A model generated the notes under the pieces. That model had not been told where the DNA came from, did no database searches, and saw nothing but the letters and a program-made list of their open reading frames with translations. 64,000 nt of DNA from an uncultured Gammaproteobacteria bacterium (lineage in GTDB: Bacteria > Pseudomonadota > Gammaproteobacteria > Ga0077536): contig CALKCL010000001.1 in the NCBI GenBank assembly GCA_938082545.1, positions 34,664-98,663 on the forward strand, given 5' to 3'. Position numbers and translations under genes: made by a program. Within the stretch, counting starts at the first letter, position 1, and each line of letters starts with the position of its first letter. Shown piece after piece: positions 24,211-35,199 of the stretch.

Positions 24211-25005
24211 ATGGACGAAGAATTCGAAACTATATTGATTGAAAGACCCAGTCCGCACGTTATGGTTCTTAAATTCAACAGGCCAGAACGTGCTAACGCG
24301 ATGAACACCCAAATGGGCTTAGACTTAAGACAGGTATTCTTGGATCTCTATGTGGATACAAACGATGTTCGCTGTCTCGTGGTTACAGGTGCGGGAGAAA
24401 AAATATTTAGCGCTGGAGGAGATTTAAAAGATCGACACGGGATGACTGAAAGGCAGTGGAAAGCTCAGCATGCCATTTTTGAACAAATGGTTCGTCTTAT
24501 GAAAGATTGTCCTGTCCCTATAATTGGTGCGGTAAATGGCGCTGCTTACGGAGGCGGGTGTGAGTTCGCCTTAGGCTGTGATTTTTTATATGCATCTGAG
24601 ATTGCACGTTTCGCACTCACGGAAATTACCCTAGGTATTATGCCCGGAGCGGGAGGCACCTTAAATCTGCCTCATGCGGTAGGAGAAAGGCGTGCGCGGG
24701 AACTGATATATACGGGAAAACCTTTTAGTGCGAAAGAAGCTTACGATTGGGGATTGGTGAATGAAATTTTCCCGCTAAAAGAACTTATGAATGAGACGCT
24801 GAAGTGCGCCGAAACGATCGCCAACAATGCGCCGTTGTCTGTAAGACAAGCGAAAAAGTCGATCAGTGTGTCTATGCAGGCAGATAGAAGTACAGGTTAT
24901 ATGTATGAACTAGAGGCTTATAATCAAATGATTCCAACGAATGATCGGAATGAGGGAATTACTGCTTTTAATGAAAAGCGTAAGCCAAATTTCACAGGGA
25001 CATGA
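24211..25005 (+). CDS. Enoyl-CoA hydratase/isomerase family protein
   Basis: 264 aa; VLKFNRPERANAMNTQM, FSAGGDLKDRHGM, NGAAYGGGCEFALGCD. Confidence 0.94.
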   Translation: MDEEFETILIERPSPHVMVLKFNRPERANAMNTQMGLDLRQVFLDLYVDTNDVRCLVVTGAGEKIFSAGGDLKDRHGMTERQWKAQHAIFEQMVRLMKDCPVPIIGAVNGAAYGGGCEFALGCDFLYASEIARFALTEITLGIMPGAGGTLNLPHAVGERRARELIYTGKPFSAKEAYDWGLVNEIFPLKELMNETLKCAETIANNAPLSVRQAKKSISVSMQADRSTGYMYELEAYNQMIPTNDRNEGITAFNEKRKPNFTGT

Positions 25006-25011
25006 AACTTC

Positions 25012-25962
25012 ATGAAGACGTCAAATAACCTGTCTAATAATGTTTGGGTTAGAGAAGTGGGGACCAGAGATGGCCTGCAGAGTATAGATACTATCTTCAC
25101 TACAGACTCAAAAATTGAATGGATAAAACAAGAAGCTGCTGCTGGAATTCCTGAAATTGAGGTCGGTTCATTCGTCCCCGCAAAATTGCTGCCTCAATTA
25201 GCTGACACGACCGACGTCATATCACAAACCTGCAAAATTAATGGTTTGCGGGTGTCGGCACTTGTTCCGAATTTTCGCGGCGCAATTGATGGTATGGGTT
25301 CAGGAGTTCATCAATTAAATTACGTTTTGTCGGTTTCAGAAGCGCATAGTCAGGCAAATACAAGAAAAACAGTTGAGGAGGCGGTATTAGATTTCAGCCG
25401 CATTGTCAGTTATCGAAAAGATAATCCAGAATACCACCATGTTCTTCTCGGAGCTGGTTTAGCTACAGCATTTGGTTGCACTATAGCCGGTCAAATTGAT
25501 GAGAAAGATGTACTGAATACATTAGAAGCTCTTCTCGAATTTTCACCTGATGAAGTAGTTGTTGCGGATACAGTGGGTTTTGCGAATCCCGCTCAATGTC
25601 GCAGAATTTTCAAGCAAGTGCTTGCTATGACAGGGAGTATTCCAGTGAGTGCACATTTCCACGATACCCGTGGATTGGGGCTGGCTAATGTCGCTGCGGC
25701 TTTAGATGTAGGCGTTAGACGATTTGATGCGTCGCTCGGTGGACTAGGAGGCTGTCCTTATGCCCCTGGTGCAAGTGGAAACGTCGTGACCGAAGACTTG
25801 GTCTTCATGTTAGACGCCATGGGCATGGATACAGGGATCTCATTGGACAAACTATTGCTCGCTCGAACGTTCATGGAAAGCAATCTAAATGGCGAAGTTA
25901 CGAAAGGTGCATTTGTACATGCCGGGTTCCCCAAAGGGTTCAAGTCAGAAAGTGTATTTTAA
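25012..25962 (+). CDS. Hydroxymethylglutaryl-CoA lyase family protein
   Basis: 316 aa; VREVGTRDGLQSI, EVGSFVPAKLLPQLADT, HFHDTRGLGLAN, GGLGGCPYAPGASGNVVTED. Confidence 0.94.
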   Translation: MKTSNNLSNNVWVREVGTRDGLQSIDTIFTTDSKIEWIKQEAAAGIPEIEVGSFVPAKLLPQLADTTDVISQTCKINGLRVSALVPNFRGAIDGMGSGVHQLNYVLSVSEAHSQANTRKTVEEAVLDFSRIVSYRKDNPEYHHVLLGAGLATAFGCTIAGQIDEKDVLNTLEALLEFSPDEVVVADTVGFANPAQCRRIFKQVLAMTGSIPVSAHFHDTRGLGLANVAAALDVGVRRFDASLGGLGGCPYAPGASGNVVTEDLVFMLDAMGMDTGISLDKLLLARTFMESNLNGEVTKGAFVHAGFPKGFKSESVF

Positions 25963-30796: not shown

Positions 30797-32881
30797 ATGG
30801 GAGAAGTAGTCAACTACAACCGCGAAAATGAGATCGCATATATCTCGGTAAACAGCCCGCCTGTTAATGCCCTTTCTTTGCCAGTTAGAGCTGGCCTTCA
30901 AAAAGCTTTTCAAAAGTTCAGCACTGACTCGGAAGCTAAAGCTGCGATCTTAATATGTGAAGGACGCACTTGGATTGCTGGCGCAGACATCACTGAATTT
31001 GGTAAACCACCTGAGGATCCTTGGTTGCCGAAAATTGTCGAGCAAATGGAAGATTGCGAGAAAATCATAGTGGCAGCAATTCACGGAACAGCATTGGGTG
31101 GAGGCTTTGAAACGGCCATGGGCTGTCATTATCGCTGTGCAGTAACAACAGCAATGGTGGGACTACCGGAAGTAACTTTAGGCTTGCTAGCAGGCGCAAC
31201 TGGTACACAAAGATTGCCGCGATTAATAGGAGTGAAAGCAGCACTCGATGCTATGGTCAGCGGCGCTCCTATTCCAGCTAAGGCTGCCTATGAAGCCGGA
31301 GCAATTGATGAGTTGATTGAAGGGGACCTTAGAGAAGGCGCTACTGAGTATGTTAAACGCCTCTTGGCTCAGGGTGCAAAACCAATCAAAGTTCGCGAAA
31401 TTGAAATTGATACTTCTGATATTGGAGAACATTTTTTCGCAGAATATCGTAATGGGATGGCTAGGCGGACACGCGGATATTTTGCACCAGAGCAGATTGT
31501 TAAATGTGTCGAGGCGGCAGTTTCTTTGCCATATGAGGAGGCTGTAAAAAAAGAAAGTGAGTTATTTATGGAATGCATGATGTCCTCACATTCAGTAGCA
31601 CAGAGACATTTATTCTTTGCTGATAGAGCTTGCGGTAAGGTTCTTGACGTCCCCAAAGACACGCCTCTCAGACCAATCAAGAAAGTCGCAGTGATCGGTG
31701 GCGGCACTATGGGAGGCGGTATCGCGATGAATTTTGCAAATGCTGGCATTCCAGTGGTGCTCAAAGAGATCAATGAAGCCGCTTTAGAAAAGGGCCTAGA
31801 GATTATCCGTTCTAATTACAACGCGACAGTTACTAAAGGCCGGATGAGTGCTGAACAAATGCAAGATAGATTGAGCATCATATCGGGAACAATCGATTAC
31901 AGTGGTGTAGGCGACTGTGATTTGATAATTGAAGCAGTATTTGAAAATATGGCACTGAAAAAAGAGATATTTGGTGAGCTTGATAAGGTAGCTAAAGCTG
32001 GTGCAATATTGGCAAGTAATACTTCGACGTTGGATATTGATGAAATAGCGAAAGCTACTAACCGACCTGGAGATGTTATTGGCTGGCATTTCTTTGCGCC
32101 GGCAAACGTAATGACACTGCTGGAGATAGTGAGAGGTGAAGCAACCTCCAAAGAGGTGATCGCAACCTCCATGGCCATGGCTAAGAAAATCAAGAAAATT
32201 GCAGTGCTGGTGGGAGTATGTTTTGGGTTTGTCGGAAATAGAATGTTCTTCCCATACGTTCGAGAGGCGCAGCAGATGATTTTAGAAGGAGTTTCCCCTG
32301 AGAGAATTGATCAAGTTGCTTTTGATTGGGGAATGGCTATGGGCCCAAATGCCGTATCGGATCTATCAGGTTTGGACGTGCTAGATAAAGTTAAAAGTGA
32401 GTGGGCGGACCGTCCAGAAGATCCATCGTTGTGGGCAGTTGGAAGTAAGCTTGTAGAAATGGGTAGGTTAGGACAAAAAACAAAGGCTGGCATCTTTACA
32501 TATGCCGGACGTACGGCAGTGCCTGATGAAGCTGTTGCTAGGATTGCTAGGGAAGAGGCCGTGCGGTTAAATGTCAAACAATTAGAAAATGTGACCGATG
32601 AAGAAATAATTGAGCGCTTGATGTACTCGATGATTAATGAAGGTGCACTAATATTAGAGGAAGAGATTGCCATGCGGTCCAGCGATATTGACGTGGTTTT
32701 TGTCCATGGTTATGGCATGCCACGTTATAGAGGTGGTCCAATGCGTTATGGTGACACTGTTGGTTTGGCCAAGGTGGTTCAAGCGATGGAAAAATACCGG
32801 GTGCGATATGGAGATACCTACTGGACGCCTGCGCCATTACTATCTAAATTAGCAGCATCTGGCGGTTCTTTTAGTGATTAA
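30797..32881 (+). CDS. Bifunctional enoyl-CoA hydratase / 3-hydroxyacyl-CoA dehydrogenase (FadJ/FadB-like)
   Basis: 694 aa; N-terminal crotonase (GTALGGGFETAMGCHYR), central NAD Rossmann (KKVAVIGGGTMGGGIAMNFANAGIPVVL), NTSTLDIDEIA, GWHFFAPANVM. Confidence 0.95.
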   Translation: MGEVVNYNRENEIAYISVNSPPVNALSLPVRAGLQKAFQKFSTDSEAKAAILICEGRTWIAGADITEFGKPPEDPWLPKIVEQMEDCEKIIVAAIHGTALGGGFETAMGCHYRCAVTTAMVGLPEVTLGLLAGATGTQRLPRLIGVKAALDAMVSGAPIPAKAAYEAGAIDELIEGDLREGATEYVKRLLAQGAKPIKVREIEIDTSDIGEHFFAEYRNGMARRTRGYFAPEQIVKCVEAAVSLPYEEAVKKESELFMECMMSSHSVAQRHLFFADRACGKVLDVPKDTPLRPIKKVAVIGGGTMGGGIAMNFANAGIPVVLKEINEAALEKGLEIIRSNYNATVTKGRMSAEQMQDRLSIISGTIDYSGVGDCDLIIEAVFENMALKKEIFGELDKVAKAGAILASNTSTLDIDEIAKATNRPGDVIGWHFFAPANVMTLLEIVRGEATSKEVIATSMAMAKKIKKIAVLVGVCFGFVGNRMFFPYVREAQQMILEGVSPERIDQVAFDWGMAMGPNAVSDLSGLDVLDKVKSEWADRPEDPSLWAVGSKLVEMGRLGQKTKAGIFTYAGRTAVPDEAVARIAREEAVRLNVKQLENVTDEEIIERLMYSMINEGALILEEEIAMRSSDIDVVFVHGYGMPRYRGGPMRYGDTVGLAKVVQAMEKYRVRYGDTYWTPAPLLSKLAASGGSFSD

Positions 32882-32922: not shown

Positions 32923-33486
32923 ATGTCTAGGATTAAATTAGTTGAGAAAGAAGGTTGTAACGAAGAAGCCGAGGCTCTATTTGAACGTATGGAGGCCATG
33001 GGATTTTCGTTGCTGAATGTATTCAAACTTTGGGCGAACAACCTGAAAGGTGCTACAGGCTTCTTGCATATTGCTGAGGCCTTGTATGTCGATGCGTCCC
33101 TGTCAGCGCGTTACAGAGAGTTAGCATACTTAAGAGCTTCTCAAGTAAATAATTGCCATTACTGAATACCTACTCATCAGATGCTCGGTCGGAGCGTCGG
33201 TATAACAGAACAAGAACTTGCGTCTATGGAGACGCCGAACACCTGTGCGTCCTTCAATGATGTCGATAAGCTGGTATTAACCTATTCGGAAAACCTTACC
33301 GCTACTAATGTAGTGGGGGACGAGGTATATTCTCGCTTGCAGAAGGCTTTTAGCAACGAAGAGATTATGGAACTGGCGATGACAGTCGGCCTATCAGCTA
33401 TGGTTAACCGAGTCCATGCAACATTTGAAACAGATGTTGACGACTCTACCCAAGATTTTGTCTCGACATTGACTTGTCCTTTGTAA
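32923..33486 (+). CDS. Candidate selenoprotein: carboxymuconolactone decarboxylase/AhpD-like family with in-frame UGA (Sec) at 33163-33165 (CxxU)
   Basis: Track ORFs 32923..33165 and 33181..33486 are in the same frame (258 nt = 86 codons apart), separated by one TGA. Joined: ...RYRELAYLRASQVNNCHY[U]IPTHQMLGRSVGITEQEL...FSNEEIMELAMTVGLSAMVNRVHATF. TGA replaces the second Cys of the AhpD/CMD CxxCxxxH motif. Confidence 0.75.
33180..33198 (+). promoter_or_regulatory. Candidate bacterial SECIS element within the CMD/AhpD-like reading frame
   Basis: GATGCTC-GGTCG-GAGCGTC: 7 bp stem (one G·U), 5-nt apical loop GGUCG starting with GG, loop begins 22 nt after the UGA. The GGU-containing loop resembles the SelB-contacted loop of E. 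coli fdhF. Confidence 0.6.
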
Positions 33487-33504: not shown

Positions 33505-35199
33505 TTAGGCAGTCTTAGCCTCCAGAAGGTTGTACTTTTCAGACATTCGGTCTCGCATTACAAATTTTTGAATCTTGCCTGTGACTGTCATTGGGAACTC
33601 ATCAACGAATTCAATATAAGCGGGCACCTTGTAATGGGCTATCTGGCCAGTGCAAAACTCTATTACTTCCTCAGCTTCACAAGACTCTCCAGGTTTTAGT
33701 TGGATCCAAGTGGCTACCGTCTCCCCAAACCGTTGATCTGGAACCCCAAAGACTGCTACATCTTGTATTTTTGGATGCCGATACAAGTATTCTTCAATCT
33801 CACGAGGATAAATATTCTCGCCGCCACGGATTATCATATCCTTGACGCGTCCTGTGATATTACAATAGCCTTCTTGATCGATCACGGCTAGGTCACCCGT
33901 ATGCATCCAATTATTAGCGTCGATTGCACCATCTGTTTTCTCTTTGTCTCCCCAATAACCCTGCATGACACTATATCCTCGGGTACAAAGTTCTCCTTGT
34001 TGCCCAACGGGTTGAGTTCGACCTTCCTCGTTGATTATTTTCACCTGTACGTGCGGCATTACCCTTCCAACAGTAGATACTCTCTTATCAACAGGATCAT
34101 CAGTGCTAGATTGAAAGCTAACAGGACTAGTTTCCGTCATTCCGTAAGCAATTGTGACTTCTTTCATACCCATCGTCGTCTGGACTTGTTTCATAACCTC
34201 TATGGGGCAAGGTGCCCCCGCCATTACACCAGTTCTCAGGGATGAGAAATCCGTATCACTGAATTTCGGGTGAGCAAGTTCAGCTGTAAACATGGTCGGC
34301 ACGCCGTGTAGCGCAGTGCATTTCTCAGATGCGAGAGCTTGAAGTACTTCACCAGCATCAAATCCTTCCCCAGGAAAGATCATTGTTGCTCCATGTGTTA
34401 AACAACATAAGACTCCCATCACCATACCAAAGCAATGATAAAGGGGAACTGGTATACATAATCTGTCTGCCTCAGTGAAGCGCATCGCATGGCCTACAAA
34501 GTAGGCATTATTAATAATGTTGAAATGAGATAAAGTCGCGCCTTTAGGAAGGCCAGTAGTCCCGCTAGTGAACTGAATATTAATCGGTTGGTCAGGATCT
34601 AACGTGTCTTCTATCTCTACTAGCGTGCGTAAAATCTTGTTGTCGGTCTGCATGGAAATGTCTTTATATCGGGAGGTGCCCGGAACTAATTTATCGGACA
34701 TAACGATGATGTGTTTGAGTGAGGGGAGGCGACGGCTTTCTAAATTGCCGGGTGACGAGTCTTTTAACTCTGGGGCCAGTGACTGAATCATTTCTACGTA
34801 GTTACTGCTCTTGAATGTCTCAGCAGACACTAATGCCTTGCATTGCACTTGGTTAAGCGCGTGTTCTAGCTCGGAAATACGATATGCAGGGTTAATGTTA
34901 ACGAGAATGACACCAATTTTTGCCGTCGCGAACTGCGTAACCACCCATTCAGGCCTGTTAGGAGACCATATACCCAGACGATCTCCTGGTTTAAGTCCTA
35001 TTTTCAATAACCCAGCCGCAAACTCATTAGCCGCGTTGTTCAGTTGTTGGTAAGTCATTCTCAGATTACTAGGACAAAAGACGAGGGCCTCGTTTTCTGC
35101 GAAGACGTTAGCAGAATTTTCTAAGGCCTTTCCTATCGTTTGAAATATCAACGGCTTGCCGCTAGTTCCGCTAACGTAGCTTAATTGTGATTCTGACAT
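33505..35199 (-). CDS. AMP-binding acyl-CoA synthetase (fatty acyl-CoA ligase family)
   Basis: 564 aa; [58 protein letters not shown]. Confidence 0.95.

Follow-up and report, generated by a model that had tools for sequence, protein, structure and literature searches.

Two short open reading frames (ORFs) in the analysed DNA, a 64-kb stretch hereafter called the window, are almost certainly parts of one intact gene whose internal UGA, judged by comparison with its orthologs, would specify the active-site selenocysteine (Sec) of an AhpD/carboxymuconolactone decarboxylase (CMD)-type redox protein. We hold the explanation as a whole with very high confidence: a SelB-decoded selenoprotein with an AhpD-type fold and with the redox chemistry at Sec81 that its family would suggest.

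Reading frame and domain content

The original prediction described two ORFs in the same frame joined by a single TGA at 33163-33165, a continuous CMD/AhpD-like domain in the joined protein, and placement of the TGA at the second Cys of a CxxCxxxH motif. Read-through translation bore out this arrangement (Table 1). When the TGA is translated as an amino acid, the TAA at 33484-33486 ends a 187-residue product in which U is residue 81 (...NNCHYUIPTHQ..., motif CHYUIPTH). Two domain matches, Pfam CMD (PF02627; residues 47-102, 47 bits against a cut-off of 23) and NCBIfam ahpD_dom (TIGR00778; 43.5 bits against 27.8), contain the UGA, and distant homologs carry Cys at that column within CxxCxxxH.

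Table 1. Coordinates of the split gene, its elements and its neighbours within the window.
Feature	Position	Strand	Basis
ORF 1, 80 aa	32923-33165	+	ORF listing
ORF 2, 101 aa, same frame as ORF 1	33181-33486	+	ORF listing
Single CDS, AhpD/CMD-like selenoprotein (almost certain), 187 aa; ATG start, TAA stop	32923..33486	+	TGA read-through translation; Pfam CMD and ahpD_dom matches; same arrangement in 25 orthologs
In-frame TGA, codon 81, predicted selenocysteine; second position of CxxC motif (CHYU)	33163..33165	+	Invariant TGA in every ortholog
Active-site helix pair: E66, C78, Y80, U81, H85	33118..33177	+	Columns invariant in 21 orthologs; AhpD relay (PMC3141380); helices 62-76 and 81-91 in model
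SECIS-like hairpin, seven-pair stem GATGCTC/GAGCGTC, loop GGTCG at 33187-33191	33180..33198	+	Folding of 22 orthologs; consensus structure; suppressed synonymous variation
Upstream neighbour, enoyl-CoA hydratase / 3-hydroxyacyl-CoA dehydrogenase fusion (FadB/J-like)	30797..32881	+	Pfam
Downstream convergent neighbour, AMP-binding acyl-CoA synthetase-like	33505..35199	-	Pfam

The ORF listing could also be read as two separate genes, or as a regulated stop with read-through that yields a short and a long product, in either case with no selenocysteine, and an ATG at 33181, 15 nt past the TGA, does open the 101-aa ORF. This ATG, however, is the codon for Met87, which falls within the active-site helix (residues 81-91) and also within the hairpin described below. 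Moreover, the CMD and ahpD_dom matches cross the junction, the codon is always TGA and never TAA or TAG, and the gene co-occurs with selB and adjoins selABC. We regard a pair of genes or a regulated stop as very improbable.

A scan of the 64-kb window for ORFs read through a single TGA returned one other case, at 24211-25962, which was dropped as a second read-through gene because it consists of two adjacent intact genes. The CMD/AhpD-like gene is the sole convincing case of this kind in the window.

Selenocysteine decoding genes in the host genome

The genome to which the window belongs (2.03 Mb in 40 contigs, 88.5% complete) carries selA, selB, selC and selD. None of them lies within the 64-kb window, as the original prediction had noted; a genome search of the kind it proposed, for selA, selB, selD and tRNA-Sec, found all four on other contigs. 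In a profile search, selB was located on contig 21 (412 bits against a cut-off of 242) with selA immediately upstream (SelA Pfam score of 510 bits), and tRNA-Sec (anticodon TCA) was found by both Rfam (67 bits) and ARAGORN; selD is on contig 7 (310 bits against 125). The genes run in the order selA, selB, a serine-hydrolase-like ORF and tRNA-Sec, the third being a member of the beta-lactamase/serine-hydrolase family (L001:3425-4663).

The same genome contains a SelW-like (Rdx) gene with an in-frame TGA and the motif CGIU (L106, G000:C5:54958-55161), and the decoding machinery therefore probably makes at least one classic selenoprotein too. In this genome the gene for the formate dehydrogenase alpha subunit lacks a TGA (L103, G000:C34:23799-25847) and apparently has Cys at the Sec position of E. 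coli FdhF, a position judged by eye.

Conservation of the UGA and co-occurrence with selB

Orthologs were found in 22 of 57 sampled related genomes (the window's own included), each with exactly one TGA and the motif CHYUIPTH. A species-wide scan, covering one genome for each of 85,462 species, gave 24 loci with TGA at the codon in 24/24 and Cys in 0/24; the motif reads CHYUVPTH in two. These loci comprise 20 from the sampled relatives and four from further genomes (L074, L080, L082 and L083), two or three of which are Binatia, and the titles of the 24 records name Proteobacteria, Gammaproteobacteria, Binatia and a few loosely named MAGs. Adding the window's own gene and that of genome G019 brings the total to 26 genes, with TGA in 26/26 and Cys in 0/26. 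Identity is 49-94% in the 21 other orthologs from the bacterial family and 47-94% across all orthologs. No close Cys ortholog was found in any species of the 85,462-species scan, and no ortholog was found outside the bacterial family in a class-wide sample of 369 genomes (E 1e-20).

Downstream of the UGA, dN/dS is about 0.07-0.17 in nine close pairs; by this measure, the half of the gene after the UGA is under purifying selection and is not decaying. Two features of a bacterial selenoprotein gene are present: an in-frame UGA after which the coding frame stays conserved and, in the distant homologs, Cys at the UGA column.

The same comparisons bear on whether this is a pseudogene or truncated gene, in which the TGA would reflect an ordinary nonsense mutation or an error in sequencing and the part after it would be decaying. 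Two short ORFs in an automatic listing are compatible with such a gene, but the same TGA occurs in all 25 orthologs, down to 47% identity, the reading frame is intact, the post-UGA region shows purifying selection and the downstream hairpin is conserved. Sequencing error is ruled out because the 25 orthologs sharing TGA at this codon come from other assemblies, and a pseudogene or truncated gene, refuted by the conserved codon together with the conserved downstream frame, is left with a negligible probability.

selB is present in 26/26 genomes that carry the gene, the four further genomes included. Within the bacterial family, selB was found in 31 of 36 genomes (in one as a fragment just under the cut-off), and the gene occurs in 22 of the 31 genomes with selB versus none of the five without it (Fisher p about 0.005, calculated by hand from the counts). 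Eight relatives have the gene immediately next to selA, followed by selB and tRNA-Sec. In the window's genus it sits in a fatty-acid-oxidation neighbourhood instead; here the FadB/J-like upstream neighbour is retained beside the gene within the genus but not in most other genera, while the AMP-binding acyl-CoA synthetase-like neighbour is conserved only within the genus. This neighbourhood is not conserved outside the genus and tells little about function.

Because the clade is Sec-only, always accompanied by selB and, in eight relatives, adjacent to selABC, it can usefully mark Sec use in these uncultured bacteria and lends itself to the question of why selenium would be needed by an AhpD-like enzyme. 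A stronger proposal, that these AhpD-like enzymes form a Sec-obligate clade, lacking a Cys ortholog in the species searched and often encoded next to selA-selB-selC, and that they catalyse a selenium-requiring reaction other than ordinary peroxide reduction, seems improbable to us.

Decoding of the UGA as Sec, which the original prediction had put forward, is supported by the sel genes, the invariant TGA, the post-UGA conservation and the SECIS-type hairpin. Its suggested alignment of homologs and dN/dS analysis gave the results above, and none of the three observations it had named as contrary evidence (absence of selB/selC, TGC or TGT at the codon, a decayed 3′ part) was made.

A conserved SECIS-like hairpin downstream of the UGA

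The loop of the hairpin begins 21 nt after the UGA, and the element is kept in all orthologs as GATGCTC-GGTCN-GRGYGTC, with one having an AGTCG loop. Bacterial SECIS elements have a small apical loop with an expected G (PMC1088965) that may lie 16-37 nt after the UGA (PMC10778597), and GGTCG at 21 nt agrees with both descriptions. The consensus fold of 22 orthologs contains eight pairs, in which one-sided G-C/G-U changes keep the pairing; no covarying pair with both sides changed was found in this structure.

The minimum free energy of the post-UGA region was not exceptional in most of the 22 orthologs (mean z -0.56), and the case for a SECIS therefore rests on conservation of the hairpin, not on its stability. 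Accordingly, codon-level conservation was used as SECIS evidence in place of a free-energy test. Synonymous variation is zero at Leu+7 (CTC), Gly+8 (GGT) and Val+11 (GTC) of the hairpin; conserved residues outside it draw on most of the codons available to them (mean normalised entropy of 0.87), and in a permutation test of the hairpin codons 0 of 100,000 permutations reached the observed mean entropy. As a natural SECIS, the conserved hairpin has a synonymous-site signature that can be measured. Its GGUC loop presumably resembles the SECIS loop of E. coli fdhF. On the comparative evidence, SelB would bind the GGUC-loop hairpin just downstream of the UGA at codon 81 and bring in the tRNA-Sec that decodes this codon during translation.

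Predicted fold and active site

An AlphaFold model of the protein (pLDDT 92.8, pTM 0.88) has the all-helical AhpD-type fold, and its best PDB matches are AhpD-like (Mlr4105, D. radiodurans AhpD, PA0269 and Bmp8). The proton relay Glu-Cys-Tyr/His-Cys-His described for PA0269 of P. aeruginosa and M. tuberculosis AhpD (PMC3141380) maps to E66, C78, Y80, U81 and H85, all five invariant in 21 sequences, with Sec replacing the second Cys. The 12-residue Glu-to-Cys spacing and the helical-hairpin active site are likewise shared with these two proteins; however, both are Cys enzymes, and the window protein is 26% identical to PA0269. gamma-Carboxymuconolactone decarboxylase has the CMD fold without the CxxC redox motif (PMC3141380), and this identity was rejected for the window protein, which has the CxxU motif and the relay residues.

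From the relay match, the 12-residue spacing and the invariant columns, we infer a Sec-based peroxide-reducing or thiol-redox cycle that would involve a Cys78-Sec81 selenenylsulfide. According to this model, the product would have an AhpD-type helical fold, Sec81 would stand where CxxC has its second Cys, and the Glu66-Tyr80-His85 relay would most likely activate Sec81. By analogy with the family, Sec81 would then attack a hydroperoxide or similar oxidised substrate, Cys78 would resolve it through the selenenylsulfide, and a cellular thiol reductant would re-reduce the Cys78-Sec81 pair.

A true selenoprotein could nevertheless have another chemistry, acting either as a Bmp8-like thiol/selenol-dependent reductive dehalogenase or as an AhpD-like disulfide reductase/adaptor for another peroxidase, and we treat this as a possibility worth keeping in mind without favouring it. 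In its favour, the structural matches include the debrominase Bmp8 (TM 0.81, 14% identity), M. tuberculosis AhpD is described as an adaptor for AhpC (PMC3141380), and the neighbourhoods of the relatives showed no recognisable conserved peroxidase partner next to the gene. Across its two structures (PDB 6OHI/6OHJ) Bmp8 has the same fold, with a TM of 0.77-0.81, but only 14-15% identity and another reaction, its assignment as a debrominase being taken from the PDB records. By sequence, however, Bmp8 is no closer than the AhpD-like proteins, and the neighbours scanned with Pfam included no recognisable dehalogenation gene. The AhpD-like relatives include a weak peroxidase, PA0269 (PMC3141380).

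Relation to known selenoproteins

The original prediction was also correct that the AhpD-like and CMD families have bacterial selenoprotein members. Work on the Sargasso Sea had already described CxxU selenoproteins of both the AhpD-like and the CMD-domain type in 2005 (PMC1088965), and a 2026 review includes them (PMC13188914), which makes the finding less novel than first rated; the deep-Sep paper mentions neither AhpD nor CMD. The AhpD-like selenoprotein of the Sargasso Sea and GOS surveys (COG2128 / TIGR01926, CxxU; PMC1088965, PMC2398784) has, like the window protein, a CMD/AhpD domain, Sec at the second position of CxxC, a bacterial SECIS and a proposed redox role. However, the window protein scores 62.1 bits against the peroxidase-related subfamily TIGR01926, below the cut-off of 81.8, and the survey families have many Cys homologs whereas the window's clade is Sec-only in everything searched. 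With the CMD-like selenoprotein (PF02627, CxxU; PMC1088965, PMC13188914) it shares the Pfam domain and CxxU, although those lists define the family at the Pfam level only.

Among other NCBIfam models, NF053654 (YciW-related (seleno)protein, a family named for its selenoprotein members) shows similarity over residues 1-156, but the window protein reaches 48.8 bits and the other clade members 47-60 bits against a cut-off of 310. Similarly, NF041238 (AhpD-related CFYUT (seleno)protein) gives 21 bits against a cut-off of 175. Every full-length NCBIfam (seleno)protein model matched by the window's clade gave scores under that model's cut-off. The clade is apparently a new, so far unmodelled branch of a known kind of selenoprotein, one that may overlap with the published AhpD-like sequences. 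Automatic annotation easily splits or drops selenoprotein genes and, because the clade lies below all of these models, about two dozen genomes probably have this gene annotated wrongly.

Two further CMD-like groups with an in-frame TGA

The same bacterial family contains two further CMD-like groups with an in-frame TGA at CxxU, one with the motif CPFU (L087, L091, L092, L093 and L094) and one with CFLU (L088, L089 and L090); two examples, both partial sequences, score below the cut-offs of the full-length NCBIfam selenoprotein models. The window's own genome yielded no CFLU member, and its matches in the ortholog search included no CPFU sequence. One TGA is present in 16 of 17 matches to the CFLU group (its position was checked in three). 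The exception, in family genome G013, has TGC (Cys) at the UGA column (L099, G013:C11:164823-165155), and no selB was found in G013. This natural exchange between Sec and Cys serves as a control for the reading of UGA as Sec in these bacteria.
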